The translations under genes were made by a program, and so were the position numbers. Positions 36,401 through 64,000 of a DNA stretch of 64,000 nt are shown in pieces (the stretch's first letter is position 1; each line of letters starts with the position of its first letter). Source of the stretch: Tribonema minus (taxonomy: Eukaryota; Sar; Xanthophyceae; Tribonematales; Tribonemataceae); NCBI GenBank assembly GCA_017506865.1, contig JAFCMP010000379.1:1-64000 (forward strand), read 5' to 3'. The notes beneath the pieces are model-generated. The model did no database searches and was not told the DNA's origin. It was given only the letters and a program-made list of their open reading frames with translations.

Positions 36401-39400
36401 GCGGCAGTATACCATCTTACCACTCCAACCCCAAACTACCGCTAGCACACCGCAGGATCCATGCACTCTGCCTGCGCCCCTTTACTCGCCACGTCTCAAT
36501 GTCGTGAGCGGCACGCCGCCAACCCATCGACTGCTGGCGTGCGTCTTTTGCCATGTTCTGTTGGAATACCAGCTTATTCAGAAGTCATGTTTGAAGTATG
36601 TGCAACGCCTGCATCATCACTACGGTACTTAACCCCCCCCCCCCCCTCCCCCCCCCCCCGCTACCCGCGCGCGCAGGCAACCGCGCCATTGTCAGGTTTG
36701 CCTTGAATCTGGACAGCGACCCCACGCCGTTCTCCATACAAGTGGCGGGCGCCAACCTGCTCTACATGCTCGTGGAGATCTTTGTGTACGCGCTGCTGAC
36801 GCTGTGGGTGGAGCGCGTCTTCTCTGGCACCAGGTATGTATGTAGGTGTGCGCTTTAAAGTGGGGTATGCAGGTACAGCCACCTCAAGTTTGTGCGCTGT
36901 GAACTTCAATTACCTGAAACCCTCTCTCTTCTATGTGCTACTGACCTTGTGGGTGGTTGCTTCAAACTCACTTCAACAACTCATAGTTCAACTGCTGACA
37001 GTACTCATGCTGTGGCGTGGAGCGCGACTTCTCTGGCAATACTGTAGGTATGTAGGCATGCGTTTTAAAGTGGGGCATGCAAGTACAGGCACGTCAAGAT
37101 GCTGTGAACTTCGACTATAATAGACACATGCGGGGCAATGTCACGCCCCCTGCGCGTGTCGTATTCCTCCCCGCTTAGAACGGCGCACTGAGCTGCTGGC
37201 GCGCTGTCCCGAATGCACACGAAAAGCGCGCGCTCCTGATCCCCTGATCTCCTTGCCACGTCAACGGCTGCCTTGCGCATCGTATTGAACGACATATTCC
37301 TTCTGTCTCTCAACGGCGTACCCAAATGCGCGCACAAACGCTCGCGCCCCATCACTCACCCCCCTTCGCTCCGCAACTTGAACTGCCCCCCCCCCCCCTC
37401 CCCCCCCGCCCCCCCACGGCGCAGGACGATCATGTCGTACTTCAGCGACAAGCGCCTCGCGCGCCGCATGAATGCCCTCAAGGACCCTGACTCGTTCTGG
37501 GACTCTGACTTGAAGGGGGCGGCGCCGGAGGGCGCCGGTTCGGGCAAGAAGCGCAGCGGCTGGTGCTGCAAGTCCGCAGGAGTTGAAGATGTTGCCATGG
37601 GTGAGTCACCGCTCAGCTCTCTCGCCTACTTCAAGTGTGGGCTGATCGATGAGCCAGCGCCTCTGGACCGTCGAGCGGCGTGTGTCATTGTCATGTTGAA
37701 GTTCTGACGTGACGCACCATCCTGCTCAGCAGTAGTCAAAGACGGCCCCCTGCACCCTGGGCTGCGAACGCGTAATACAGCTTGTGACATCTTCACCGCT
37801 TCATTTGAGTTTGAAAGTGCCGCTATCACTGCCCGTGCTCGCAGTGCCTGCGGGCGGCGCGGAGGCCGTCAGCGAGGACCCCGACGTCCCGGTGACCTGC
37901 CACGATAATTATCCAATACCTAGCAGACTCGACACACTTTGCTGCTGCGCCTGCAGGAACAAGCCCTGACGTGCACAAGCGTCCGCCTCTCGATCGCGCG
38001 TGCTTGCAGTGCCACGCGGGCAGTCAGCGCGAGACACCCCAAAACCTCACAGGCGCGATGCTGCCTGTGACGGCTTCACCGCTGTATCTGACGTTGGAAA
38101 GCGCTGCTATCACAGCGCCGTCGCAGACAGGCCCTGACGTGGGAAAGTGCTGCCTCTCGATTACCTGTATATGATTGCAGTGCCTGCGGGCGGCGCGGAG
38201 GTCGTCAGCGAGGACCCCGACGTCCTGACCGAGCGCGACAGGGTCAGCCGCGGCGTATCGGACGTGATTCAGATACAGGGCTTGCGCAAGGTGTACCCCG
38301 CCAGCACAGGCATGAAGGTGGGCGCTCAGTGCTTTTGAGGCATTTGTGACAGCGCTCTGATGGCAGAGTATTCTGCAGCATTACCAGGCGCTCTCTGCAG
38401 CGTTGTGCTGGCGATTTCGTGTCAGTGCTCCGCGCCACTGTTTCTTAGCTATGCTGCACCGTCAGCAGCTGAGTGTTACACACCGCTTTACGTCACAACG
38501 CGGTACCCTGAGAGGTGGCCATGCACTACTCTGATACTGTGCTTTACAAGGCGAAGTCCATGTAAAGCTATAATCTGTGCGGCCACTGACCTGCATTGAC
38601 GATGACGCAGCTGAGACTTCCCATTGTTCTCCTTCGTTGCGCCACGCTGCGCCGCCGCGGCAACATATAGCCGTGCACAACTCGTGTAGGCATGGTATAA
38701 GCACACACAAGTAGGGTATGTAGGCTTTGTGGAACGCGTGTGTGCATGCGCGCACGCGCAAGTACTGTAGAGCATCGGGCCATGTGCCATACTCTGTCAG
38801 CATTTGACAGGCTTACATTGCGATTTGCGTCGCGCCATGCTGTCCTCACAGGTCGCTGTGCGCAACATGTGGCTCGGCATCCCCAAGGGCCAGTGCTTCG
38901 CGCTGCTGGGCATCAACGGCGCCGGTAAGCATACCTACCCTACCCTTGCATAGGACAGTTACAACTGGCGTCGTGGCAGTTGCATCCAGGGCCTGTACCT
39001 GCCCTTTCTGTGTGTGGTGGCTGCAAGTTTTAGGCCGTTGACGCACAGTGCGCATGAGTCGGTAAGCGCTTCTGATCTCGCACCTACCCTTGCATGTGAC
39101 AGTCACAACGGGCGTCGTGGCAGTTGCGGCGCTGTGTCCGCCCTTTCTCGGTTTGGTGGCGGCAGCCTTGAGGCCATCGATGCACATTGCATCATGTGCC
39201 GTATGCGTGTGCATTTCTGCACCAGTGCGCGTATGCACCACTGCAGAACATGATGGAATAGCGACGGCATGCACGTGCTGCTAGCGCCGCTGTGACCCTC
39301 TGTCGATGGCATCGCCACTCACCAGCAGCGTACGTGCGGTGCCGACCACTGGACCGTACCTGAATCATCTCCTCACCTTCCCCTGATATGCCCGATCTTG

Positions 39401-48937: not shown

Positions 48938-49039
48938 GTGAGCACACACTGCCTCGAACATCGGTCGCAGCACATTTCAAAGATCGGCCTCGACAAATAC
49001 CAGCATTGCACTCACATCACTAACCTTGTACACTTGCAG
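48938..49039 (+). other. Probable 5'UTR intron of the LRR gene
   Basis: CGAGCAG followed by GTGAGC at 48938 and TACACTTGCAG ending at 49039 form a good donor and acceptor pair. The exon restarts one base before the ATG at 49041. An intron here would explain why the reading frame is open but has no ATG upstream. Confidence 0.6.
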
Positions 49040-49040
49040 G

Positions 49041-50969
49041 ATGGTTTTGCACATCCTGTACCTGCTGGTACTCTGGTGCTGGCCAGGCCGTCCGAAGCAC
49101 AGCGAAAAAGACATCGAAAATGGTGGAGGTGAGGGGCCTAGTGCAGGCGGCACCTTCGAAAGTGCTCCTTCTCACGGAACAGCCGCGCTACCTAAGCCAG
49201 CAGGTGGAGCTGCAGCAGCTGCAGCAGCTGCAGTTGCAGCAGCTGCAGCAGCTGGTCCCCCTCCGGGGCTAGCGAGATTACGCTCTGTTACATGGACCCC
49301 CGATCAGATCTTCGACGTCAAGCGCCGCATCATACGGAGGAAGATCGAGCCGCTCGCGATAATGGCTTCTTGTGCAGCTGATTTGGACGTTGCCTCGGAC
49401 TGGCTCTTCTTTGTAGATCCGGGATCTCGAGGCACGCAATACGCGCACATCGCAGAAATGCGCACTGCAACGCTTACATTCTGCATAATCGGGACGGTGC
49501 TGTGGTTTCTTGTTTGTACGGAGTTCCACATCGGCGCAGCGCTCAGTGGGCGCATAAATAGGTGGTGGGGGACAAATGCGTTCACCGGGCGCATACCTCT
49601 TGGCGTCACGCTAGGTGTCAACATGCTGCTGGAGGACATTCCACAGGTTGTTCTTTCCGGGATAGACACATCGAAAACGGGGCTCAGCGCGTTCGGCGCT
49701 TTCAATATCGCCGGTTCTATATTCTCTATCATTACGAGATTAGTGGAGGTGATGGAATCGTTGGAAGAGATACCTGCACGTGCCGAACTCCAACTAGTCG
49801 AGGATGCTCCGGATGTCATTGACACCATCGCCATGCTCAGGGAGTCGGATGCTGCGAAGGCAGCAAGAGCGAGTGCTGTTTGGCGAGCTGATTATTCAAC
49901 AGCTCTGCGGGTGCACGGTATCAGAGGCCTGAGTAACAGAGCGTGCGTTCAGGCGATCGGTGACATACTGCAACTTGAGGGGTTTACGAGGCCCACGGCG
50001 CAAGAAGCGGTGACTAGCCTTAGTTTCCTTGGGTGCCGTGCGCTGCAGAGTGTGCCTGAGTCCATAGGCAATCTGACGGGCCTCACAAGCCTTGATTTCA
50101 GTGGGTGCAGGGAGCTCCGGTGCGTGCCTCGGGAGATGTATAAGCTCACCAATCTCACGAGCCTTGATTTCACTGGGTGCCAGGCGCTCCAGAGCGTGTA
50201 TTTAAAGCACTTAGAAAAACTCACAGCCCTAAAATTAGAAGGCTGTGTTGCTCTGACAAGCCTTTCTTTCCAAAAGTGCTGGGCGCTCAACAGCGTGCCT
50301 GAGTCCATAAGCAAGCTCACCGGTCTCACACGCCTTGATTTCCGCGAGTGGCTCATGCTTCAGAGCGTGCCTGAGTCCATAGGCAATCTGACCAGCCTCA
50401 CAAGCCTTTCTTTCTCTGAGTGCATGAGGCTCCAGAGCGTGTCTGAGTCCATAGGCGGCCTTATCGGCCTCACAAGCCTGGAATTCAACAGGCGTGAGGC
50501 GCTCCAGAGCGTGCCTGTGTCGATAGGCGGCCTCACCGGCCTTACAAGCCTTGGTTTCCGTAAGTGTGAGGCGCTCCAGAGCGTGCCTGAGTCCATAGGC
50601 GGCCTCACCGGCCTCACAAGCCTTGATTTCTGTGAGTGTGAGGCGCTCCAGAGCGTGCCTGAGTCGATTGGCGGCCTCACTGGCCTCACAAGCCTTGATT
50701 TCTGTGAGTGTGAGGCGCTCCAGAGCGTGCCTGAGTCCATATGCAACCTCACCGGCCTCACAAGCCTTGACCTGATCAAATGCCAAGACGGCGTTGTGCA
50801 AGCAGCAGTTGAGGCCCTGACGCTAACGTCCCCCCGCACTCTCAACAAAGAGTATTTTATCGAGTGGGGGTCTGAAGACATTCTAGAGCTATCACTGTCT
50901 GCACTGCCAGGTCGCCCAGCCATCGAGGTCAGGTTGTCAAAGGATAAGCGAGCGCTGTTAGCGTTGTGA
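49041..50969 (+). CDS. Membrane protein with C-terminal leucine-rich repeats (642 aa)
   Basis: I chose the ATG at 49041, just after the probable 5'UTR intron. The N-terminus is hydrophobic (MVLHILYLLVLWCW) and may be a signal anchor. A Pro/Gly/Ala-rich spacer with Ala runs follows. Residues about 105-245 form a membrane domain with ADLDVASDWLFF, LTFCIIGTVLWFLV, LLEDIPQVVLS and FNIAGSIFSII; the DxxSDW and LEDIPQ features recall XK-related-like membrane proteins, but this is tentative. From about residue 317 there are some eleven leucine-rich units of 23-24 residues (LTGLTSLDFxxCxALQSVPESIGG), several nearly identical in DNA. Such LRRs usually bind proteins. The coding region has no introns, and the stop is TGA. 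Confidence 0.85.
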   Translation: MVLHILYLLVLWCWPGRPKHSEKDIENGGGEGPSAGGTFESAPSHGTAALPKPAGGAAAAAAAAVAAAAAAGPPPGLARLRSVTWTPDQIFDVKRRIIRRKIEPLAIMASCAADLDVASDWLFFVDPGSRGTQYAHIAEMRTATLTFCIIGTVLWFLVCTEFHIGAALSGRINRWWGTNAFTGRIPLGVTLGVNMLLEDIPQVVLSGIDTSKTGLSAFGAFNIAGSIFSIITRLVEVMESLEEIPARAELQLVEDAPDVIDTIAMLRESDAAKAARASAVWRADYSTALRVHGIRGLSNRACVQAIGDILQLEGFTRPTAQEAVTSLSFLGCRALQSVPESIGNLTGLTSLDFSGCRELRCVPREMYKLTNLTSLDFTGCQALQSVYLKHLEKLTALKLEGCVALTSLSFQKCWALNSVPESISKLTGLTRLDFREWLMLQSVPESIGNLTSLTSLSFSECMRLQSVSESIGGLIGLTSLEFNRREALQSVPVSIGGLTGLTSLGFRKCEALQSVPESIGGLTGLTSLDFCECEALQSVPESIGGLTGLTSLDFCECEALQSVPESICNLTGLTSLDLIKCQDGVVQAAVEALTLTSPRTLNKEYFIEWGSEDILELSLSALPGRPAIEVRLSKDKRALLAL

Positions 50970-51220
50970 TAGGATTTTCCAACGTAGCTTAAAGAGTCTA
51001 TATTTAGTAATACCCTATATTTACTATATTTACCTATATAAATCCCTACGGAAGAAGAAGACTCAGTCAGTCTGGTTTCTAGCGGGGGAAGTGCGAGCGG
51101 CGAGTAGGTGCGCACGTGCGATGTCGGGGAATGCCGACTCTGAGACCCTGACCTGAAATGATCTTGACCCTGATCTAGAATAATCACAGGTAAATTTTGG
51201 CGCCATTTCCGGAGCAACTG

Positions 51221-51251
<31 letters not shown>

Positions 51252-52700
51252 CGCGCACATCAGCCCCTTCAGCTCAGTCAGAGACACAGCCCTACGAGGC
51301 GCAGTCTTGAGAGCGTAGCCGCCAGAGCCAGGACTAGGGTTATAAAGGGATCTCCAGCTGTACTCTGCATTGCCGCCACTCGCCCGCCAGCACAACCAGC
51401 AGCAGCAGCAGCAGCAGCACACACAGCAGGCAGCCCGCAGAGCGCAGGCACGCACCAGCACGGCAGTCAACCGTTACCTCGGCGCAACAGACCACCAGCA
51501 GCGCACAGCCAGCAGCAGCAGCAGCAGCAACAAGGCAGGCGGCAAGCGGAGCAGGCCAGCAAAACGCAGGCAAGTATTTTTAAAAGTGCGCACTGTTGTT
51601 AACTCTGCAGGATGTCCTGCGCCATCGGTACGTACGCCCACAGCATAGCGAGCAACGCCTGCCAATGTAGCAGCAGCAGCAGGAGCAGCAGCAGCAACAC
51701 CAGGCGCGCAGTCGTAGGCATGGCGCCCTTTGTATCGTTGGCAATTGAGGCACCAGCAGCTGCTGCAGCAGCAGCAGCACCACCACCACCAGCAATTGAC
51801 ATCAACGACAACTGACATCAGATGGTATTGCGCCAATGGTATGCCGCGCGCAATGTCACTTGCCACCAGAGCAAGCGCACTGGTATACCTGCTTTAAAAC
51901 ACCGCGCAGAACAGCGCCAGCACCAGCAACAACAGCAGCAGCATCAGCAGCAGAAGTAGCGGCAGCTGCTGCTTACTTACACAGCTGCTGCAGAACAAAG
52001 AGCAGTGGCAGCAGCAGATAAATGAGCAGCAGCAGCAGCAGCAGCAGCATCAACGGTAGCAGTAGCACCAGCGCTGATAGCAGCAGCATGAATGAAGTAC
52101 AGCAGTGAAGGTATACCCTATGGATGCAGAGCAGCTGACATTCACAGCGGTGCAAAGCTCACAACACAAACGAGGTTGCACATTGCAATCATAATGATCC
52201 ACATGTTTATCATTTGACATCCAGTGAAGCGCGCTGGAAACCCATTGGCATGTATGCACTCATGGATCATGTCATGTATGCGCTTCGAAACACTTGCTCG
52301 ACCAGCATCATCGTCATAACCTACCAGCGCTGTTGTGGGTGTACGTGAGAACAAGGCGGGGAACATCACACCACAACAGCCACCCACGTCTTGCCACCAC
52401 CAGCCACCAGCGCAGGGTGTCACTGGCTTGTGTTTGTGGCAAAACCGGCGTGAATAAGGGTGTAACGCCCCTGAACTCCTGGCAAGTTGTGCACTGCAAG
52501 GTGCATGGCCGGCAGCAGCTGTGCACAAGTACCTAGCCTCGCGCCGCACACAGGGCGCCAATGAGGCTGCATATTTTGATAGCAAGACATGTGCAGACGT
52601 CAGCCCTCAGGCTGCAAAACCATCGCGTATGCCTCTATGCGAACGACTGGAATGCTGGACCGCTCGTGACAGTCTGTGAGACACTATATAGCCTAAGGGC
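50970..52700 (+). other. Low-complexity intergenic region
   Basis: An AT-rich stretch with repeated CTATATTTAC (50995-51050) follows the LRR gene and may be its 3' end. From 51220 to 52110 the sequence is dominated by CAG/GCA/CTG triplet runs that make spurious Gln, Ala, Ser or Leu frames on both strands. The open frame 52142-52585 minus has scattered Cys and His but no recognised domain. Confidence 0.45.
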
Positions 52701-53024
52701 AAGGGGAAAAAATCCCCTCGCAAGGGGAAAAGCAAACTTGGCTTGAGCCTGGTTTGCATTACACTCACCCTCCTCACGGCGCCAACTTGACATCCCAAGA
52801 TAGGAGAATCAGGAGAAATAGGAAAAATTAGAAAATTTCCTACAGGTACAGTGACAGGCGCCATTGAGCAGTCGGTGCGGCCCCATAGTAGAATTTCATT
52901 TTTTTCCTATTTCTCCTATTTTCCTATCATGCATACCCAGAAAAAGTGCTTCAGGAGGCCAGTGATTGCAAGACACGCACTTAAGCCCATTTTACTTTCA
53001 TATCCGATAGGAAAGTTTTCCCAT
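52701..53024. repeat. Large imperfect palindrome A (about 324 bp)
   Basis: The left and right halves are complementary over most of their length, centred near 52863. The strongest arms are 52799-52836 (GATAGGAGAATCAGG, AATAGGAAAAATT) and 52891-52928 (AATTTCATTTTTTTCC, CTATTTTCCTATC). Outer arms also pair: GGCTTGAGCCTGGTTTGCA with TGCAAGACACGCACTTAAGCC. Small hairpins sit at the ends (GGGGAAAAAATCCCC; CTTTCATAT-CCG-ATAGGAAAG). It ends 57 bases before the primase-helicase ATG and could also hold its promoter. A second copy in the same orientation lies at 56617-56934. Confidence 0.85.
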
Positions 53025-53081
53025 CAAACTGATCACGTCATCTCAACCACATTTTTTTTGTTGCCGTCATTCGAAAGCAGC

Positions 53082-56000
53082 ATGGACATCGACGACTTTG
53101 ACCTGCGAGCCGCGGAGAATGGCTTTATTGTTGATGAGGAGCCCCCTGAAGAGCCGCCTGTGCCGCTTGCCACCCCGCCGGCTGCGCCAGCTGCTCCATG
53201 TGCACCCCGCCCCTCGCCCAAGCGCAACACCAGCTACGCGAGGCAGAAGGTGCAGCAGTACCTCGCGCCTTCCGGCCAGGGCATCAAGGGGTCGCACAAC
53301 GGCATGGATGACATGCGCGGAGTGTTCGACGTGCCCAACTATGAGACTGATGCCGATGTGCGCGAGACCTTCTTCACCGACATCATTGAGGACCTGCACC
53401 GCTGCGGCTCGCCCTTTGTGCTGATGGAGAACATCTGCAGGCTACCAGACGATGCAGAGACGCGCCTGCGTCTCGACATTGACGTGGAAGTACCTTATAA
53501 GTTAAACGCCGACCATCCACTTGCCCTCACCCCCGCCGTCGCCCACAAGTTCTGTAAGACGCTGTGGGACGTGTTGCACGAGTGCACTGGCATCAGCGGC
53601 GCCTCGCGCTTCTTTGTAGACGCCAAGGGCGCGCCCACGCCGACAGTTGCAGGCATGTGGAAGCACGGCGTGAAGATTACGTGCAGCGACATCAAGTGCA
53701 CACACAAGGACATGCTGGGCATTAGGCAGCTCATGAACGACCGCTACAGCGCGTGGGGGCACGAGGAGTGGCTGGATGGCAAGGAGGCGCACGAGATGCA
53801 GATTATCGACCCGTGCATCTACGAGAACAACGGCACTATGCTGCACGGCGCGGTCAAGGAGAAACAGCAGCAGCACGGCGGCTACAAGACGGTGGCAGTG
53901 ATGGGCGGTGACGACCTTCAGTACTACAACCGCTCAGCGGATCCGCTCCGCTCATCCGCGACCCTGAAACTCAAAAAGCAACCGAGCACTTATGCTATAG
54001 TAAAGTCTCCAGGGCAGAACAGGTGTTGAAGTTGGGTAATGGCATGCTGTAGCCCTATGTCAGGGGCATCTGCTGACTACTCACTTGTTTAAGTTGATGT
54101 TGTTCCTGATGTGATATTGTACTTCAACGGTGATATTCATACTTCAACTTCATGCCAACTTCAACTGTCATATCACTGCTCAGCGTGCAATAGCACGGCT
54201 CCACCCGTCTCAACTTCAACAACCAACAGCTCTTCTGGTGCGTCTAAGTGAGGCCAAGAATCTACCATTGTCAAACTTCAACAGTTTGAGTGTCTTGACT
54301 GACTTCACTATAGCATAAGTGCTCGGTTGCTTTTTGGGTTTCAGGGTCGCGGATGAGCGGAGCGGATCGGAGGCGACTTGCACGACCTCTCCTTCGCTGA
54401 GCTGCTGCGCGCCACATCCATCCTGCACCATGACGAGAGCACCGCAAAGCTGCAATGGCGCGCGGGCAAGGAGCCGGTCATTGTGCAGCGGCGTGGTGCC
54501 AAGCGCACGCGCCGCAGTGCCGGCGCGGTAGCGCTGGCCGCTGCAGCGGAGCACTACACCAACAAACTTACCACCGCAGATGTGCAGCACATCTACGAGG
54601 CGGCGGGGGGGGAGCTGCAGCTGCAGCAGATTGCCGGCATCAGGCCCGGCACTATCTCATGGCGGGAGGTGAGCCCCGGCACTGATGCTAGGGTGTGCCT
54701 TGTGCCCGAATGTGCCGGCAGTGGCCACAGCGACAACGCATTGCTTATCGAGTGCTATCACGGGCTCAAGTACAAATGCTGCTCCACCGGAAAGTGCTTG
54801 TACCTGGAGCGCTGGGAGACCGAAGAGGACCTGCTCTTCGGTGGTGACAACGGGCTCGCCAGGCTGTTTGCCAAGCTGCGCGGCCACGACGTCAAGAACA
54901 TCGGCGGCGACGGCGACAAGGCGCGTTTCATTATCTACTGCGAAAAGACGGCGCTGTGGAAGCCGCGCTACAACAGTTTCGTGCGCTGCACCGAGATACC
55001 CAAGCTGGTGGCCGCCTACGTCGAACCGCGACTACAGAACCTGGAGCCGTACCTGGAGGCGGCGTGTGCCGCTGCTCGCGCACGCAGTAGGGCAGAGGAA
55101 GAGGACGAGGAGGCGGACGAGGAGCTAAGAGATTTGAAGGCCAAAGCGGCCTCCCTCTTTGCCATCAAAGAGAGCATCAAGGGCACGAGCAAGCGCGAGG
55201 CCATCCTGAAGGACGTATTCAGCACCATACGCGATGAGGATTTTGAAAAGCTACTCGACGTCAACAAGGACATATTCAGCTGCCAAAACGGCGTGGTGGA
55301 GCTGGCCACTGCCACGCTTCGCCCGCGCGTGCGGAAGGACATGCTGACCCGTGCAGTCAACATCGACTACAATGCTGACTCGCCGCGCATCCCCGAAGTT
55401 ATGCAGCTGCTGACCGACATCACCCTCGCCGCGCCGAATCGCCTCAACCGCCCGGCGCTGCTGGAGCGCCTGCTGCGCATACTGGGCTACTCCATCACAG
55501 GCCACGTGCGCGAGGAGATCATTGTATTCCTTCTAGGCTGCAGCGCGCGCAACGGCAAGGGCATCATCGAGAGCCTGCTGCAGCAGGTTCTCGGCTGCAT
55601 GTTCTACCAGGCGCCGCAGAGCTTTCTGACGGCATGCAAGGCGGTGTCGGCGGGTGCCGCGTCGTCGCACATGATGGCGCTACGCGGTGCGTGCTTGGTC
55701 CACCTCGACGAGCTACCGGCGGGCGTTGCGTTGACGCGCAGATGATCAAGTACATCAGCGGCGGTGCCGACATCTCGGGGCGAGAGCTGTTTGGCAAGCA
55801 GACGTCGTTTAGCCCAACGGCAGTTCCGAGGGCCAACACCAACGAGATGCCAATCATCAAGGCGGAGCCGGCGATAATGCAACGCATTGAGATCATCCCC
55901 TGCGATGCCAAGTTTCGCACGCCCGGGGATGCCAAGTTCCCCTACGACGCCAATGATAAGACACACTTCATCAAGAACACCAAACTGCGCGAAAACCTGC

Positions 56001-56386
56001 CCGTGGAGGCGTTCCTGGCGGTGGTGGTGCAGGCGGCCAAGAGGTGGTACGAGGGTGGGCTGGGGGAGAAACCGGCTTGCTGCAAGCTGGCATGCGACGC
56101 TTTTGCCGCCGAAAACGACACGCTGCAAAGCTGGATCAACGACGAGTGTGAGCTGGGACCCAGGGAGGGCGCCGATCCGGCGCTAATCTTGTGCAGCAGC
56201 GCGTTCAGCGGTTACAACAACTCCCGCGCGCGTCAGGAGCCGGCGCTACCGCCAATCAAGAAACGCGACATGCACGAGCAGATGGCGGCCAAGGGGTTTG
56301 CCAAGATAGACGACTACAGGAAGGCGCACAGTCAGGACAATTGCAAATGCGTGTACGCCGGGCTCAAGTCTGCGGGCGGCTACTAG
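53082..56386 (+). pseudogene. D5-type primase-SF3 helicase gene, broken by an insertion and a frameshift
   Basis: The start is the ATG at 53082 (MDIDDFDL). The N-terminal part resembles an archaeo-eukaryotic primase, with RLRLDIDVEV as the DxD metal motif. After the inserted element, a Cys/His-rich segment (CAGSGHS to KCCSTGKC) may bind zinc. The helicase follows: Walker A GCSARNGKG near 55533-55560, Walker B LVHLDELPAG near 55696-55725, and then, in another frame, MIKYISGGADISGRE. Two lesions are visible: the 430 bp inverted-repeat element at 53939-54368 and a one-base shift within about 55710-55733. The last frame ends with TAG at 56384. Such proteins prime and unwind DNA in viral replication. 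The remaining sequence is well conserved, so inactivation looks recent. Confidence 0.85.
53939..54368 (+). mobile_element. Non-autonomous inverted-repeat transposon (MITE-like), copy 1
   Basis: The ends form a terminal inverted repeat of about 68 bp with two mismatches, starting GATCCGCTCCGCTCATCC. The interior has no gene and is rich in GTTGAAGTT-type motifs. It interrupts the primase-helicase reading frame, which resumes in the same phase at 54369. No clear target duplication is visible for this copy. Copy 2 (60240-60673) has the same structure with its interior in the opposite orientation. Confidence 0.92.
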
Positions 56387-56616
56387 TGAATGCAAGTGCG
56401 CCATGATGATCTTGCAAACCTGCGTCCCCTTCATTGCCATGTTTTTGCCTGCTCACTTGCTTGTTCAAGTGGCCTTCAGGCTTGATAATTAATGGAACGC
56501 TTGCGTGCTTGCCTGCTTAGTAATACCCCCTTTCAAAGTATTACAATGGAATACTATATACTTGCCCGCTTGTGCTGCCTTTAAACATGCAATGTCTGCA
56601 TGCTTGTCAATGTGAT

Positions 56617-56934
56617 GAGGGGAAAATATCCCCTCTTGAGAGGAAAATCGAAACGGGCTTAAACGTGGCCTGCACTGCACTCACCCTCCTCAGGGCCACC
56701 GGTACAAAACCCAGGATAGGAAAATCAGGCAAAATAGGAAAAATTAGACAATCTACTACCGAATGCTACTTGCCCTCTGCACATCTGTGCGGCTTCATAG
56801 TAGAATTTCATTTTTTTCCTATTTCTCCTATTTTCCTATTCTGCACAAGTGTGGGCCTTCAGGAGGTCAGTGGCTGCAAAAAGCATGTATAAGCCAATCT
56901 CAGTTTTCCTATCCACTAGGAAAATTTCCCCCTC
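56617..56934. repeat. Large imperfect palindrome B (about 318 bp)
   Basis: This is the second copy of palindrome A, in the same orientation, 231 bases after the primase-helicase stop. The core arms are 56715-56750 and 56801-56839; TAGTAGAATTTCATTTTTTTCC and CTATTTCTCCTATTTTCCTAT are identical to A. Outer arms pair AGGAAAATCGAAACGGGCTT with AAGCCAATCTCAGTTTTCCT. End hairpins are GAGGGGA-AAATA-TCCCCTC and TTTTCCTA-TCCAC-TAGGAAAA, the latter perfect. Confidence 0.85.
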
Positions 56935-57822
56935 GAACGCCGACCCGAGCAATGCTATGTGGCAGCCCCCGGGCCACACTAGCACCGCCTCACCCATGCG
57001 CCGTGCAACGTCCAGTCATAGCGAACACTCAAACGAGGCAAGAGGCGTGACACAGGTCGGTATAAAGCAACTTTGACCTTCATTTGGTTGCAGGTGGCCT
57101 GGTAAATGAGGTCCCATGCCAACCCCTCATCGCATCCGGTACTGCAAAGTGTGCGCTTTCAATCATGTCGTCCCACTCCAGCACTTGCATAAGCTCCTTC
57201 GAGTTGCCGCCCCAGCCACACATTGTCAGCAAGCCAGCTGCGGTGTAAACATCGTACAAAGATCATCCATGGCAAGCACCGCCCGATTGTCACAAGCCTG
57301 ATCTTGCAGCACCGCCACATGCTGTGCCGTGCTCGACTTAGATGGGGCACACGTCCTGCTCGTTACGATAAGACGCTTGTGCGCCTGCGCGTAGTGGAAG
57401 GAAGAAACACAGCAAGACACCATCAGTGCGTTGCATACTCGGCACACAAATGTCTTATGTGCCACCACCGTCATAGTGCAATACACAGGGTTGTCTGCTA
57501 CGATCAGCTGCTGCAGCAACATGAGGGCGAGGCACTCCGAGTCAGCCAGCACAGGCACAGGAAAGGCAGATCATGCACAGGCATCAAGTGTACACATGTA
57601 AAAGGTAGCCAGTACACATCACATGTACACGTCACATGGGCGTAAGCACTTCCAGTACTTGCTGTAGGTGGTTTGATCTGCAGCCACAATGGCACCGTGC
57701 AATGCAAAATCTTGTCAGCGCCTTACACCTCTGGTGCTTGCAACTTGAAGGCGCCTGCCAACCGTCATTCAACATGGAAGCGTGTGGCCAGCATAGACAT
57801 GCACATGCACTTCTCATAGTCA
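56935..57822 (+). other. Intergenic region inside the virus-like element
   Basis: No gene is recognised. The longest frames (57223-57645 plus and 57226-57558 minus) overlap on opposite strands. The minus one has FVCRVCNALMVSCC, a possible Cys pair, but nothing else supports it. The region may hold a decayed gene. Confidence 0.35.
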
Positions 57823-58926
57823 TCATGACCTATGCTGCTCAACTGTGACCTTCATGTTTGCAAGCGCTTTCAATATGACGTCCACCTTCATGTCTGCCAG
57901 CGCATCTGAGATCACTTTCATCTGATGAAGTATAAGGTCAGCTGGTGCGTGGTTATCACCCTCTGATAGCCAATTGAACGTTACAGCAGCCATCGTTGGG
58001 CTGTGCTTCATGAACTCATACCTAGATGACGATCGCTCAGATCTATGCCCCAGATATGCTTTGATGGCATTGGTGTACTGTGCTTGAAACTCCAGGCGCA
58101 GGTGTCCGTACTCGTGGTGGAAGCAGTATGCTGCATAGATCTGCCTGATCTTGTGCGGAGTCATGGCTACACCAATGTGCTTGCGATAAAGGTTTGCTAT
58201 GGTTTGGAGTGCAGGTACTTTCTCCAGGTCTAGCTTGCGCTGCATGTTGTTCAGCTCGTGAGGAGAGCGGCAGCGCAAGAGCGCAAGTCCCTTCTCAAAC
58301 CTGGCAAAGTCACACCATAATGGTGCGCGATGGTTCGCCTGCCCACCCTTGGCGCGCGCGCTGGTAATGAAGTGGCCAGCGCCTCCATGGCTCACTGTGT
58401 ATGCAGGGCCCCTCAGCTCAGCCCCGCGCATACCCGAAACTAAACCCAAAGCCACAAAACGTTCCTTCTCTGTTGTCACTAGCGAATCTACGGTAGCTGC
58501 AGCCCACTGCATTACGTGTCCAAAGTTCATTATGAAATACCCACGCCCACCTTTAACCTTGTAGCTCTCATCTTGCCTTGTGATGTTTCGATGAGCGAGT
58601 AGAGGGCACCTAAACGAGTCACCCCACGCAAGCCCTCTCAGTGCTACACGTACGCTGGTGAGAACAGCGGCCAGGCTATTCGAGCTGAGCGGTCTGCGAG
58701 CAGCCAGAAGGGTGTCCTTATGCGCACCAACAGCAGCAGCACACCGTTCTCTATATGTGTCCTCGCTGGCAATCCAATCACAAGACGCTGCCATCACCTC
58801 AAGCATGTATCCCCTCGCATCGCATGGGCCGTGCAGATCCACCCTCCTACATCGCTTCATGGCAAGAGCGACTACTGGAGTCACTCGCCAGTCGTCCACG
58901 CCATACGTTAGCTTTGTCGCAGGCAT
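57823..58926 (-). CDS. Tyrosine recombinase, telomere-resolvase-like (367 aa)
   Basis: I start at the first ATG (58926); a stop lies just upstream in frame. All catalytic residues of tyrosine recombinases can be placed: Arg167 (SGMRGAEL), Lys193 (SARAKGG), His258 and Arg261 (TPHKIRQIYAAYC), His294 (AYLGHRS) and Tyr303 (SSRYEF), with the usual nine-residue spacing from His to Tyr. The TPHKIRQIYAAY segment recalls protelomerases (TelN, TelK and ResT families), which cut palindromes and reseal them as hairpins; the family match is from memory and not tested. It would act on DNA in the nucleus or in a viral factory. The gene has no introns or breaks and diverges from the second recombinase gene across a 179 bp spacer. 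Confidence 0.75.
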   Translation of the reverse strand: MPATKLTYGVDDWRVTPVVALAMKRCRRVDLHGPCDARGYMLEVMAASCDWIASEDTYRERCAAAVGAHKDTLLAARRPLSSNSLAAVLTSVRVALRGLAWGDSFRCPLLAHRNITRQDESYKVKGGRGYFIMNFGHVMQWAAATVDSLVTTEKERFVALGLVSGMRGAELRGPAYTVSHGGAGHFITSARAKGGQANHRAPLWCDFARFEKGLALLRCRSPHELNNMQRKLDLEKVPALQTIANLYRKHIGVAMTPHKIRQIYAAYCFHHEYGHLRLEFQAQYTNAIKAYLGHRSERSSSRYEFMKHSPTMAAVTFNWLSEGDNHAPADLILHQMKVISDALADMKVDVILKALANMKVTVEQHRS

Positions 58927-59105
58927 CTGTAGCACTACCAATCATCAAAGATAATTTTGTGCGTATTCAGCCATATGAAGAAAGCATTGCACCACCCAAC
59001 TCATGTATTGACTGATCAAAGAATACGTAACGTGCACAGGTGGTGCAATGACCACTGCCAGGCAAATATTATATACTGCCTTAAACATACCACGCTTTAG
59101 GCACC
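58927..59105. promoter_or_regulatory. Divergent promoter region with a perfect 12 bp inverted repeat
   Basis: The spacer between the two recombinase genes contains CATTGCACCACC (58985-58996) and its exact complement GGTGGTGCAATG (59039-59050), 42 bases apart. A TATA-like ATTATATACT lies near 59070, about 30 bases before the ATG at 59106. The arms could be an operator bound by a recombinase or a regulator, or a stem in RNA. Confidence 0.5.
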
Positions 59106-61292
59106 ATGCCGTGCACAAGTACACTCATCCACAAGCTCACCCTATGGCTCCATGAGCGCAGGAGCCCCTACGCGGTAGTAAGGTGGTTAGAGCAGCTGCA
59201 CCCTGAGGCCCTCTCTGACGACCTCGCTCATATCAGAAGCCTGTCGCGCAGAAAATATGGTGACAGCGTTGTGAAACGTGGTGATGCATACAAGGCAGGA
59301 CTGGAACAGGCTGTCCAGCACGCAAAGCGCATGATATGTCTAGCCAAGAGCAATGAGGAGAGGGTATGGGCGGAACATGTCAAAGCACGCACTGCTGATC
59401 TTGACTCCCTTAGCTTCTCCAGCCAGTACGAGCTCAAGGTCAGTGGCAGCTTACATAAAACTGCGGCACACTCGTACACTGGTAGTGTGTCTGTGGATGG
59501 CATGCTTGCTGTCCTCGTGCGGCAACCAGCCTATGTTACAGAGCTCAGGCCGCCCGAGCGTCAAGCTGGATCAAACATGGTGCAACTATCACAGCAGATT
59601 TCAGCAAATGAAAAGGTACTCACTGGCTGTGATACGCTGCAGGCGGGCGCTGAAGTGCACAACCAAGAAGTGACACAAACAGCACGCTATAGCCTGCCTG
59701 TGCAAACTTATGCTGCCCATACCTCACGTGAAGCGAACTGCAAAGTGGCCCAGCACACGGCTGTGCGGCGCAACGAGCCACCTAGCACACAAGTGCAGGC
59801 ACAGTGCCAGGCCCAATCAGTGTCATCTAATATCAGAGGTGCTATACCTGGCATACATGATGACACATTGCGCAGTGCTGCCCAGCGGCAAAGTGTTTCA
59901 TGCCGCCCCAGCTCGAGCTCCATGCACGTCCCTGCTGCAGCGCACATAGATTCAAGCACAGCACAGCAGCAGCAGCAGCAAGTGTTGAGCAAAGCACCAG
60001 GACCACCAGCAGTCAACGAGATTATGTGCGACATGTTGGCAATCGTGAAATATCCTAGACCGAAGGTAATTGGATTGGCATGCGCACTGGCATTCATGTC
60101 CGGGAGAAGCTTGTCTGAACTACTTGCAACCGGCACTTTCACTTCTACACCGCACAGCACCAGCAAATGCCCATGCATCGTTTTCAACGTATTTTCATCA
60201 GCTACCACTGCCGGTGGCACTGCAGCACCGTTGCCCCTTAGGATCCGCTCCGCCCATCCGCGACCTTGAAACCCAAAAAGCAACCGAGCGCTTATGCTAT
60301 AGTGAGGTCAGTCAAGACCCTCAAACTGTTGAAGTTAGATAATAGTAGGTTGTTGGCCTCACTCAGACGCACCAGAGCAGCTCTTGGTTGTTGAAGTTGA
60401 GATAAGTGGAGCCGTGCTATTGCACGTTGAGCAGTGACATGACAGTTGAAGTTGGCATGAAGTTGAAGTTTGAATATCACCGTTGAAGTTCAATATCACA
60501 TCAGGATCAATATCAACTTCAACAAGTGAGTAGTCAGCAGATGCCCCTGACATAGGGCTACAGCGTGCCATAACCCAACTTCAATATCAGTTCTGCCCTG
60601 GAGACTTTACTACTGGACAAGGGCCTCGGTTGCTTTTTGGGTTTCAGGGTTGCGGATGAGCGGAGCGGATCCTCCTTCTATGTGAGCCCAGATTATTCCT
60701 GGCGGCGTTGCACAGGCTGCGGGAACTGAAACCAATGTCATCCACGACTCCTTGCAAGGACGTAAACTCATGTTTCTGCAAGACCTCCAATGCAGCTGCA
60801 AAGGCTGTGTTGGGGTCACCTCATTGCACGTTCTCAGACCTGAGGGCGCTGTACGTGGGGCTAACATGCGCACAGCGTCGCACCACTGATGCATGCCCAC
60901 AGCAGTCCTGCATCCAAAGTGGCTTCATAGCGAAAACACAGAACCTGGTAAAAGACTGGGCAAAGCAATGTTTGCCAACCTCACGACTGCCGTCCTCAAA
61001 GGCATTCCTGACAAAGTGCTGCAGCGGTTACCTAGCTGCCGTGAGTGTAAACGACGCCTCCAAAGATGGCTGCATGCCACTAAGTGCTGCTGTTAACGTT
61101 GATGGCGAGCTGCCAATAGCGGTGGCACCGGTGGTGGCGTCGTCTTTCACAGGTACGTCGCCCTGCTCCAGCCACGCGATCAACCAGGCCAAGCTGCTCC
61201 AGACACTGTTGCCTGTGCTTGCCCAGCACCGCAAACAGAGTGGTTCACAGGCGTACATTAAACCAGGTATCAAGGCTCGTGCATGCAGATGA
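59106..61292 (+). pseudogene. Second telomere-resolvase-like tyrosine recombinase, interrupted by a MITE-like element
   Basis: The ATG at 59106 opens a frame with a basic helical N-terminus (to about residue 110), a Gln/Ser-rich low-complexity middle and a catalytic start: IVKYPRPKVIGLACALAF then SGRSLSELLATGTF, with Arg334 as the first catalytic Arg. This matches the 'TGRR-E-L-TGSF' pattern I associate with telomere resolvases. The 434 bp element at 60240-60673 then interrupts it. The frame resumes in phase as LFLAALHRLRELKP, followed by FSDLRALYVGL, the probable second catalytic Arg. No clear LGH motif follows, and GYLAAVSVND may hold the Tyr, so the end may be decayed. It could be a partner or older paralogue of the minus-strand recombinase. 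Confidence 0.65.
60240..60673 (-). mobile_element. Non-autonomous inverted-repeat transposon (MITE-like), copy 2
   Basis: The ends are AGGATCCGCTCCGC and its complement GCGGAGCGGATCCT. CCTT directly precedes (60236-60239) and follows (60674-60677) the element, a 4 bp target duplication. Removing the element and one CCTT restores the recombinase frame across the site, which supports these limits. The interior matches the complement of copy 1. Confidence 0.92.
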
Positions 61293-62341
61293 CATTGTAG
61301 AGTGTAAGCATGATTGCAACCAGCGGGCCACACACATGCAACGGTTGCTGAGACACACACATGGAGTTGTGCTCCTAAAGCTCACAAATGTTTAAAAGTA
61401 TCAAGGCTCGTCATTTCAGTGGCAGAGTATGACTTCCGCACCATCTGCTCACCCGCAAAAGCGCTCCAAGGACATCATTGGCTGCCAGCAAGGACAGGCT
61501 GCCTCTCCGGTAGTTGTTGGTGCTGACACCTGTTGCTGCTGTTGGTGCTGGCGATGGTGCTGCTGCTGCTGCTGCTGCTGCTCGCGTTTCACCGCCCTGG
61601 TTGACCCGATAGACGCCCGCTCCTAAACTGACGGGCCTCACCCGTTTCGGGACTCAGTGCTGGTAACATGAGGGGGCTGCTGCTGACTGCCGCACTGTGG
61701 TGGCGGTGCTTGCAAGTATCTGAGCGAGATTTGTGGGAGGGCATGCTGGTGTGCACCTGCATGCTGGTGCGCCTGCCGCTTCAAGTGGCTGAAAAATCAG
61801 GCGCAATGATGAAGGTGCGGTCACCTTCGTCTCCACGAGGGGCAGCCCTGGTGTTGATGCCAATAACCCGCTTTCTGGTACAGTCACCACCATTGTCATG
61901 CTGAACTTATCCGTGTCTTGTTCCGGACATAAATATACAAACAACAACACTGAGTGAAAACACACGTGTCACGTCTCACGCAACAGCAGCAGCAGCAGCA
62001 GCAGCAGGCAACAAGTGACAGGGAGAGGGAGAGGCGCGCAGAAAGCAGCCAAGAAGGAAGAGATTGACGTAGGCGGGGCGAACAACTGAAGAGGGCTTTT
62101 CACGCAGAGGTAAGCTCCCGCTTTATACCTACAAGACGCCTGCTGCTGCTGCTGCTGCTCAGAGCGACAGTGACGATGCCAAAGCAAGCAGCAGTGCAGC
62201 GGCGAAGGGGAGAGAGATAGTAGAGAACGGCAGGCCTGCTGGTATGAGTGGTGCTAGCACCTTTCCGGGACCTTGGTGCTGTGCATGACCTTCATAGCTG
62301 ACATGCAACAGCAGAGAGCGCGCGCCGCGCAGCAGCAGCAG

Positions 62342-62373
<32 letters not shown>

Positions 62374-62628
62374 GCACACAGCAGCACCTGTAGGCACTGT
62401 GCTGGAGCCAAGGCAGACCAACTGCCACCACTATCACCAGCACCCCAGCGGCAGTGCCAGCAGCGAAGAACAGTAGTAATAGGAGGGCGTTTGCGCACAC
62501 TTCGTCCCGCCAAAAAGACATCATTCTGTCCACTTCGCACTGGTGTTCATCATGCCCCCCTCATGCCCCTGCTTTTGCTTCTGCTCATGCTTTGTCATCG
62601 GTGCAGCCAGTGCGCGTGAACCTTCACA
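61293..62628 (+). other. Intergenic region with CAG/CTG runs
   Basis: No gene is recognised. Triplet runs occur at 61556-61585, 61984-62008, 62139-62160 and 62325-62375 and create Gln, Ala, Cys or Leu frames. The sequence has no other clear structure. Confidence 0.4.
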
Positions 62629-63298
62629 ATGGTCCCATGGCATGCAGCAGCAGCAGCTACCTGGCCAAGGGTGACAGTGCTCTGTGCAGCACTGCTAGGC
62701 GCCCATGGGTTCCTGGCAGCTCACATCAAAGCCTCGTCTCGAGAACTGGCCCCGCACCAGAGTGCATGGCGGAGTGTGTCTTCTCTTTGCACGGTGCCTG
62801 GCAAGGTGCGTCTACGCTTTGCTATGATTTGCAATGCATTTGTGGTGAGTGCAGCAGACAGCGAGGTGCAAAGTATTCTGATGTGTTCAGTGCTGTTTGA
62901 CCAGTTTGCATCATTCCAGCAAATGGCTTTATCAAAACGATCAATGATTGATTTGCTGCACATGCTGCATACGTGTGGCATATTTGTCTTGCAGGACGGC
63001 CCTGAGTTTTTCATTGCTGGAGTTGGGTTTGTGCTCAACACACTGCCAGAAGCAGTGCAGGCAGGGCTTGCCGCTATTGGCGGCGCAAACAGCACGACGC
63101 GTGCTGTGGACAAGCTCCACAGCAGCACTCTGGTGCTCAACGAGGCACTGAAAGGGGACAAGCTCGTGCAGCGTGATTGCTTTGCGGACTTCAAACGCTT
63201 GGTGGACAGTGCGACGGCTGATGATCAAAACCCGTCGCTGCTGGTGCATGGTCCACGGGGTGCCGGGAAGACCAGCATAGTTGCAGCAGCTCTTCAGG
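62629..63298 (+). CDS. P-loop ATPase, N-terminal part (gene probably continues in further exons)
   Basis: The frame ends with LLVHGPRGAGKTSIVAAAL, a clear Walker A motif of the AAA+/STAND type (GPRGAGKTS), about 20 codons before a likely donor (CTTCAG, then GTTCGC at 63299). Upstream the protein has a hydrophobic stretch (FIAGVGFVLNTLPEAVQAG) and DCFADFKRLVDSA. A good intron is also possible at 62842-62995 (GTGAGT to TTGCAG), so the model before the P-loop is uncertain. The ATG at 62629 is only the first Met of the frame. Walker B and later motifs are not seen, so the role (for example origin binding, signalling or chaperone) cannot be told. Confidence 0.5.
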
Positions 63299-64000
63299 TT
63301 CGCTGTGCATGACCCCCACCATCAATGTCTGCTGCATGTACATCCACGGTTACCGCAATGACTCTTCTGTGTATCTGATGTTGCCAGCACGCTGGTGGCA
63401 CCATCAACATGCGGAAACCCTTTAGAGTAGCGGTGCTCTGTGACGCTTCTTCACATTGTCAAGCACAAAGCAATTGTCCTTTGCAGGCCAATTAGCGATC
63501 AAAGCCAACCAAAGCACATATTGTGCTGCTGAGCAGAAGAATGCACAAGAGAAGGTCGAAATGGAGCATCCCTCACATACACGGCATGCCAGGCTCTTCC
63601 TGAGCGCCTGTGCAGCAGCAATGCGCTGCGTGAGCAGCTCGATACACCTGCTCTGATAAGAGTCTGTAACGTTGCAGTCCGTGTGATGCAGAGGTAGTGA
63701 CAGTGTAGGCGTTGTCCGCACTCTCAGCAGCTCCAGCTGGAGCGTGGCTTCCGAGACACTCCTTGGCACAGCTGTGGTCACTGGTGGCCTCAATCAGCGT
63801 CCAGCCAGCCGGAATTGCAGCAGGTGCTGTGCCTTTTCATGGCATGTGCTCCGTGTCCACTGCACATTTTCTAACTGCACCCTGTTGTGACAACACGGCA
63901 GTTTTTCTAGTATTGCAGCTCACGTGATCACTACATTTTGCGCAATTGATGGGTTTTCCAGTCTGTCATCACCATCCGTGTGATGCAGGACAGTAATCAA
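63299..64000 (+). other. Probable intron or downstream region of the P-loop gene
   Basis: I could not find a convincing next exon. A string like CCGTGTGATGCAG occurs twice (near 63680 and 63975). Short frames on both strands have no recognised domain. Confidence 0.3.

Follow-up and report, generated by a model that had tools for sequence, protein, structure and literature searches.

Telomere resolvases are known from phages (e.g., TelN of N15, TelK of phiKO2, and Tel of PY54) and from Borrelia, and by sequence they have also been recognized in phaeoviruses and coccolithoviruses (PMC13236599 and PMC10222054). According to the first of these papers, phaeoviruses and the Ectocarpus proviruses (i.e., EsV-1 and endogenous viral elements, EVEs) insert at CC, their attachment site is accompanied by inverted repeats rich in AT, phaeoviruses encode both a tyrosine recombinase and a telomere resolvase, the latter with a palindromic site, reads turn at a palindrome, and homologues of the phaeovirus recombinases are reported in Tribonema (PMC13236599). 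A telomere resolvase is also predicted for coccolithoviruses (PMC10222054). Here, we describe a mobile element of approximately 17 kb that is present in about a dozen copies in the genome of Tribonema minus (158 Mb; 554 contigs), starting from a stretch of 64,000 nucleotides (contig C379, positions 1 to 64,000; "the window"). Protein records with high identity to the genes of the window bear the name Tribonema minus. Other contigs of the assembly are likewise named C plus a number, and window coordinates are coordinates of C379. The sequences support a mobile replicon with palindromic ends that encodes proteins of the telomere-resolvase family and a replication protein of viral type.

Several known systems resemble this element in part. 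Polinton-like viruses, virophages, and transpovirons are small protist elements with a primase-helicase and sometimes a tyrosine recombinase. The Tribonema element is likewise small and encodes a primase-helicase, but its recombinase-family proteins differ in appearing to belong to the telomere-resolvase branch, and no capsid or packaging protein was matched among its scanned proteins, which did not cover every frame. Cryptons and other tyrosine-recombinase transposons are mobile elements of eukaryotes that encode a recombinase of this kind; by description, the Tribonema element is set apart from cryptons by its larger size, its own primase-helicase, and recombinases that match telomere resolvases. 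Like the phage telomere resolvase systems, the element has palindromes at several of its ends. One of its two recombinase-family proteins (YR2) is homologous to the phage resolvases over the catalytic domain but differs in lacking four of the five catalytic residues, and the other (YR1) has the phage spacing of catalytic residues and a profile match. The muzzle, stirrup, and N-terminal TelK domains, which our domain scan found in TelN, were found in neither protein, and the host of the element is a eukaryote. By description, phaeoviruses provide the nearest published parallel (PMC13236599); their proviruses span 288 to 407 kb and have capsid genes, unlike the 17-kb unit. We found no description of such an element by title or abstract in a literature search that left preprints and most subscription journals outside. 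If our reading is true, this eukaryotic element, which is small, multicopy, and palindromic at its ends and which encodes a replication protein together with two members of the resolvase family (one complete, one degenerate), would offer a compact model for asking whether closed DNA ends form and persist in a nucleus, and by what means. The resolvases of algal giant viruses could also derive from it, or it from them.

Extent, copies, and left ends of the element

The part of the element within the window extends from 51013 to 64000 (forward strand). Its left border was set by the C150 copy and a C334 copy (C334:531k), both of which start at window base 51013/51014. On the right side, the match with C150 continues up to the end of the window, where the fetched C150 stretch also stops. 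Beyond the window, C379:65322-67489 matches C226:16064-18153 in blocks (72 to 94% identity); since the first palindrome centre of C226 lies about 509 bases beyond the matched blocks, the right end of the C379 copy would fall near 68,000. A genome search gave long matches to the primase-helicase gene at 11 places, plus one 97-base piece, and matches to the YR1 gene at 12 places, one of them truncated. The gene order, read directly from the sequence, is common to C379, C150, and C226: primase-helicase (+), YR1 (−), YR2 (+), and an ATPase (+).

Nine matching rows reduced to four separate left junctions with different flanks, namely, those in the window, in C150, in C334 near position 515,000, and at C334:531,381. 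Each of the four enters the element at (C)CTATATTTACT, which is half of the palindrome TGAGTAAATATAGG-G-CCTATATTTACTCA. In the window, this left terminal half-palindrome (beginning CCTATATTTACT) occupies positions 51013 to 51050 of the forward strand. The palindrome is AT rich and has the core TATAGG-N-CCTATA. The full form stands beside the C150 end, and more core sequence (TATAGGGCC; an array of half-sites) lies next to the C334:531k and C150 ends. The window contains no full core site within one mismatch, as expected if it has only a half.

One insertion can be compared with its empty site. The C150 copy lies within the YR1 gene of another copy, where AAGCTAGACC is followed by TATTTTTACTCAGGCCC, compared with AAGCTAGACCTGGAG in the window, in C179, and in a C226-type copy. 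The empty and filled sites (i.e., AAGCTAGACC-TGGAG versus AAGCTAGACC-TATTTTTACTCA) place this insertion at CC, as read on the left side, and CC is present at three of the four left junctions.

Two alternatives bear on these junctions. The first is an integrase-type element without hairpins, in which YR1 would circularize the ends (the inverted arms around GGNCC serving as attP) and integrate at CC as proposed for phaeoviruses, whereas inverted dimers would be accidents of replication or repair. The CC junctions and the empty site favour this possibility, as does the insertion of phaeoviruses at CC with AT-rich inverted repeats around it (PMC13236599); we regard it as tentative but worth serious weight. 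In the second, the 17-kb unit would be only a repeated fragment within the remnants of a larger giant virus (a xanthovirus) to which these genes belong. Xanthophyceae are reported to contain genes of giant viruses, and in phaeoviruses a tyrosine recombinase is found alongside a telomere resolvase (PMC13236599). However, a single left border joined to four different flanks argues against a fragment of this kind, as does the absence of capsid or packaging matches in the scanned proteins, and we consider it very improbable.

Across 157,000 bases from 12 sources, there were four perfect palindromes with arms of at least 11 bases (low-complexity ones were set aside), three of which have the core TATAGG-N-CCTATA. 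In 20 simulated sequences of equal length, there were 0 to 2 such palindromes each, with arms of at most 12 bases. Two palindromes (GTGTATATAGGNCCTATATACAC and GTAAATATAGGNCCTATATTTAC) belong to the element, and the lengths observed are 45 bp and 29 bp. Scanning viral contigs for the palindrome core gave no match. The fourth perfect palindrome (27 bp; GTGACGTCACGTCTGACGTGACGTCAC; C334:531,454-531,480) lacks the core of the element and is located some 70 bases away from a left end, on the outer side.

An inverted dimer with palindromes at its centre

C226 contains two inverted units (about 1,036 to 36,955), whose blocks are 98.8 to 100% alike. Near the centre, a perfect 45-bp palindrome, TGGTCTCGTGAGTGTATATAGG-G-CCTATATACACTCACGAGACCA, occurs twice, 192 bases apart, among partial copies ending in GGGCC or GGCCC. 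It has TATAGG-N-CCTATA in common with the left-end palindrome. An earlier note on this DNA had proposed a mobile replicon with palindromic ends. That proposal is supported in part, with palindromes other than the one it named, i.e., those that share this core and lie at the four left junctions and at the centre of the C226 dimer.

An inverted dimer is the expected form of a replicated hairpin end, and the symmetry of the C226 palindrome continues unbroken across the centre, the middle base excepted; both points speak against the integrase-type element. Arms around a short core also suit Cre- or Xer-like sites, which counts in favour of that alternative. It is improbable, in our judgment, that the C226 dimer, and hence the right-end palindrome, arose as an artefact of sequencing or assembly. 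The small size of the C226 contig and the near identity of its arms to each other, to C353, and to the C235 end would suit such an origin. Nevertheless, the sequences outside the arms differ as fetched (1-1035 versus 36,956-38,500), a difference that is not expected of a simple fold-back read, and the core of the C226 palindrome is also found at left ends on other contigs.

A rearranged second inverted arrangement was seen at C334:515003-531381, where a unit is cut at window base 57499 and directly followed by an inverted unit from 59240. Its joint lies inside the element, not at an element end.

YR1, a telomere-resolvase-like recombinase with a complete catalytic set

YR1 (57823 to 58926, reverse strand; 367 amino acids) is a telomere-resolvase-like tyrosine recombinase in which a complete catalytic set was assigned by motif (R167, K193, R261, H294, and Y303). 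The names of the R-K-R-H-Y motif and the residue numbers of TelN and TelK are those that we take to be in use. The spacing between the second arginine and the histidine (R-H, 33) and that between the histidine and the tyrosine (H-Y, 9) are the same in 5/5 YR1 sequences, and both are present in six of the seven phage resolvases. The R-H spacing is 23 in XerD and 22 in lambda Int (hand-counted), and Cre did not match the pattern used. Against a profile of the seven phage telomere resolvases, YR1 gave an E value of 1.3e-4 (probability, 54), compared with 0.42 against XerD, Int, and Cre; the alignment covers both arginines and stops before the histidine and the tyrosine. None of 100 column shuffles reached the profile score of 42.0 (shuffle mean, 16.0; maximum, 26.6), and none of six ungapped comparisons of YR1 with XerD, Int, and Cre stood out. 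With the contrary results given below also weighed, YR1 is likely, though not certainly, homologous to the telomere-resolvase branch. Our reading of YR1 follows the motif spacing and the profile comparison in preference to the MAFFT columns.

The profile result also argues against the integrase-type element, as does the lack of any PF00589 match listed for YR1 up to an E value of 10, although HMMER filters drop most weak matches. By contrast, the YR1 motif HKIR has the HxxR pattern that is usual in ordinary tyrosine recombinases, and it favours that alternative.

A protein search found a YR1 relative with 45% identity over 84% of the sequence. The ratio of nonsynonymous to synonymous substitution rates (dN/dS) was 0.15 to 0.34 in 12 of 15 pairs of YR1 genes. 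Scanning prokaryote genomes for YR1 gave no match, searches of PDB sequences yielded chance matches only, and YR1 and YR2 did not match each other convincingly (E value, 0.087; profile E values, 0.12 and 0.26).

YR2, a TelN homologue without most of the catalytic residues

The YR2 gene is split in the window (first part, 59106 to 60239; second part, 60674 to 61292; both on the forward strand) by a repeat at 60240-60673, and it is unbroken in C150 (630 amino acids) and in one C226 arm (582 amino acids). YR2 matched phrog_5272 with E values of 4.9e-9 and 4.4e-10, and N15 TelN, used as a check, matched the same family over its whole length (3e-293). BLASTP of the C226 YR2 against TelN alone gave 9e-9 over 139 residues. 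A hidden Markov model (HMM) of the seven phage resolvases was run on 809 sequences, i.e., 14 YR1 and YR2 sequences together with the frames of at least 80 residues in the window and in 11 fetched stretches. The YR2 members scored between 6.8e-12 and 2.5e-7, the second part in the window scored 3.2e-4, and the frame containing the first part scored 0.011. The YR2 profile matched the phage resolvases at 1.8e-10, compared with 0.078 for XerD, Int, and Cre. Protein searches found nine YR2 relatives, including five Tribonema paralogues, and four of the nine passed the curated ResT-TelK_cat cut-off. The earlier note had described two recombinases with resolvase-like motifs, which holds in substance; moreover, when the comparison with the resolvase family was run, YR1 and YR2 both matched telomere resolvases, not the ordinary integrases tried.

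In all eight aligned YR2 sequences, serine replaces the first catalytic arginine, the lysine, histidine, and tyrosine are missing, and the second arginine is kept. YR2 is thus a clear TelN homologue by sequence that has lost four of the five catalytic residues, and because they are missing in 8/8 sequences, it is probably not active as a recombinase. The dN/dS value was 0.41 (one pair). A tblastn search of phages with YR2 found none up to an E value of 10, and viral contigs scanned with YR2 (twice), YR1, and the primase as guides yielded no relative.

Two side observations concern the YR2 family. In PHROGs, phrog_5272 is labelled as having an unknown function, and the TelN match identifies it as the protelomerase family. 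The five Tribonema minus paralogues (P0008 to P0012), which lie on other contigs and are 41 to 48% identical to YR2 over the aligned part, perhaps mark related elements.

The primase-helicase

The replication protein combines an AEP primase domain with a D5-type helicase, which is the fusion characteristic of the D5/P4 type, and the D5-type primase-helicase noted earlier was borne out by three family models. In the window, the first part of the gene (52851 to 53928, forward strand; the start of the frame may be further in) encodes a C962R-type primase domain (PF23162; E value, 2.8e-5, above the curated cut-off; frame 52851-54029). The helicase part (54378 to 56386, forward strand) consists of two overlapping frames (54378-55745 and 55634-56386), the first of which contains D5_N (PF08706; 2e-11, above the curated cut-off), and this part also matched PHROG DNA primases. 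The window gene is broken by a repeat at 53939-54368. A 963-amino-acid frame from another copy reached 109.2 bits for TIGR01613, just above the curated cut-off of 108.7, and matched PHROG DNA primases with E values down to 6.9e-44.

Long primase-helicase frames (930 to 963 amino acids) were present in six fetched loci, although the three 930-amino-acid frames may be one locus, and the C226 frame has an apparent shifted tail beside the usual C-terminal frame. Three relatives were found outside Tribonema: one with 73% identity (96% covered), one with 60% identity (71% covered), and one that matches only distantly. The dN/dS values were 0.47 to 0.81 (six pairs).

A proposed cycle and the evidence weighed against it

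We propose that the AEP-D5 primase-helicase would copy the element and that YR1, as the catalytically complete member of the telomere-resolvase branch, would cut and rejoin DNA at the palindromic ends with the core TATAGG-N-CCTATA, resolving inverted junctions to closed ends or rejoining them. The element would then enter host DNA at CC dinucleotides, and YR2 may bind the ends as an accessory protein. We infer the action of YR1 on the palindromes, the role of YR2, and a free form of the element; by analogy, the closest model for its action would be a replicon in which an enzyme of the telomere-resolvase type cuts and rejoins the palindromic ends. For a multicopy, 17-kb mobile replicon with this cycle of replication, end cutting by YR1, and entry at CC, we estimate a probability of approximately 0.45. 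A more specific version, a nuclear transposon or linear plasmid that has its own primase-helicase, hairpin telomeres made by its own resolvase, and a dead second resolvase as a telomere-binding protein, seems rather unlikely. We do not class the element with the N15-type hairpin systems because it lacks the accessory domains of the phage enzymes and because YR2 has lost most of the catalytic residues; its hairpin ends are putative.

A number of observations weigh against the proposed cycle. Half-sites were found in only 4 of 11 copies. A fifth copy (C235:703k) has an array of half-sites with GGGCC or GGCCC spacers near its left end and no match to the anchor used, and the other six (C179, C235:1077k, both C226 arms, C353, and the C235 end) have no half-site in the sequence read. 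Both C226 arms, C353, and the C235 end, which are at least 98.7% alike, may be one locus. The C334:515k junction has TC instead of CC, and the right end of the element was read in C226 only. The palindromes have an odd centre base, compared with the even 6-bp centre of N15-type sites (a centre consistent with PMC13236599). The left junctions also fit integration at CC by a recombinase as for phaeoviruses (PMC13236599).

Other points of the same kind concern YR1. The phage HMM, run on the 809 sequences, missed it (best, P0003; E value, 0.41). Pfam ResT-TelK_cat gave a weak match (best, 7.3e-4; 7/7 members), and Cas3_HD, which we take to be a chance match, was of similar strength (5e-4; 6/7 members). 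Only 3 of 14 ungapped comparisons with the phage resolvases stood out (Valp1 twice and PY54 once), and MAFFT placed the histidine and tyrosine of YR1 in columns other than those of the motif count. The dN/dS of YR1 was 0.53, 0.90, and 1.66 in three pairs of close copies; one member has an altered tail in two of these pairs. The structure models of YR1 and YR2 had a mean predicted local distance difference test score (pLDDT) of 35.3 and 36.4, respectively, which is too low for use.

A 430-bp repeat inside two genes

The earlier note had named two copies of a 320-bp palindrome flanking the replication gene as the candidate ends. There are indeed two copies of an inverted repeat in opposite orientations, but each is about 430 bp, has an unpaired middle, and lies inside a gene, i.e., the primase-helicase gene (53939 to 54368) and the YR2 gene (60240 to 60673). 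The copies are 91% alike over 383 bases, and their terminal inverted repeats are 68 bp (97% complementary) in the first and 49 bp (94%) in the second. A genome query of 1,001 bases that included 62 bases of the first repeat gave 409 candidates, 40 of which were scored. Besides the window itself, the scored matches comprise 10 further copies of the primase gene and 29 hits on the repeat end alone, some of which are both ends of a single repeat copy. All 10 other primase copies break off at query base 929, where the repeat starts, and resume about a dozen bases on in the next query. Repeat-free sequence was read at the first site in C150, C334, and C226, and at the second site in C150 and C226. 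A 4-bp target duplication (CCTT) is clear at the second site and unclear at the first. Further copies lie in the C334:531k element (529940-530373) and within the left region of the C235:1077k copy.

Short length, terminal inverted repeats, dispersed copies, and a target duplication (clear at one of the two insertions) make this a dispersed repeat resembling a miniature inverted-repeat transposable element (MITE), not a telomere or element end. Its two copies in opposite orientations among the genes would suit a telomere of the element, as the earlier note had it. We rejected that candidate: the genome search found the end sequence at many places without the genes, both copies lie within genes, other element copies lack the repeat at both sites, and the second site has the CCTT duplication. 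The chance that the repeat is the telomere is negligible.

Other features in and beside the element

Two diverged stretches of about 320 bp, repeated in direct orientation (52702 to 53029, forward strand, and 56617-56937; approximately 74% alike), lie before and after the primase-helicase gene, occur in other element copies too, and are perhaps duplicated regulatory sequence. The first part of the P-loop ATPase (62620 to 63309, forward strand) is AAA_16-like (PF13191; E value, 3.8e-5), although its 24.7 bits are below the curated cut-off of 32.6, and its second part is probably at C379:65205-66191, beyond the window and across an intron. Outside the element, a leucine-rich-repeat gene (49026-50969; LRR_14, 1.3e-25), built of 72-base units that are nearly identical, stops about 45 bases short of the left end.

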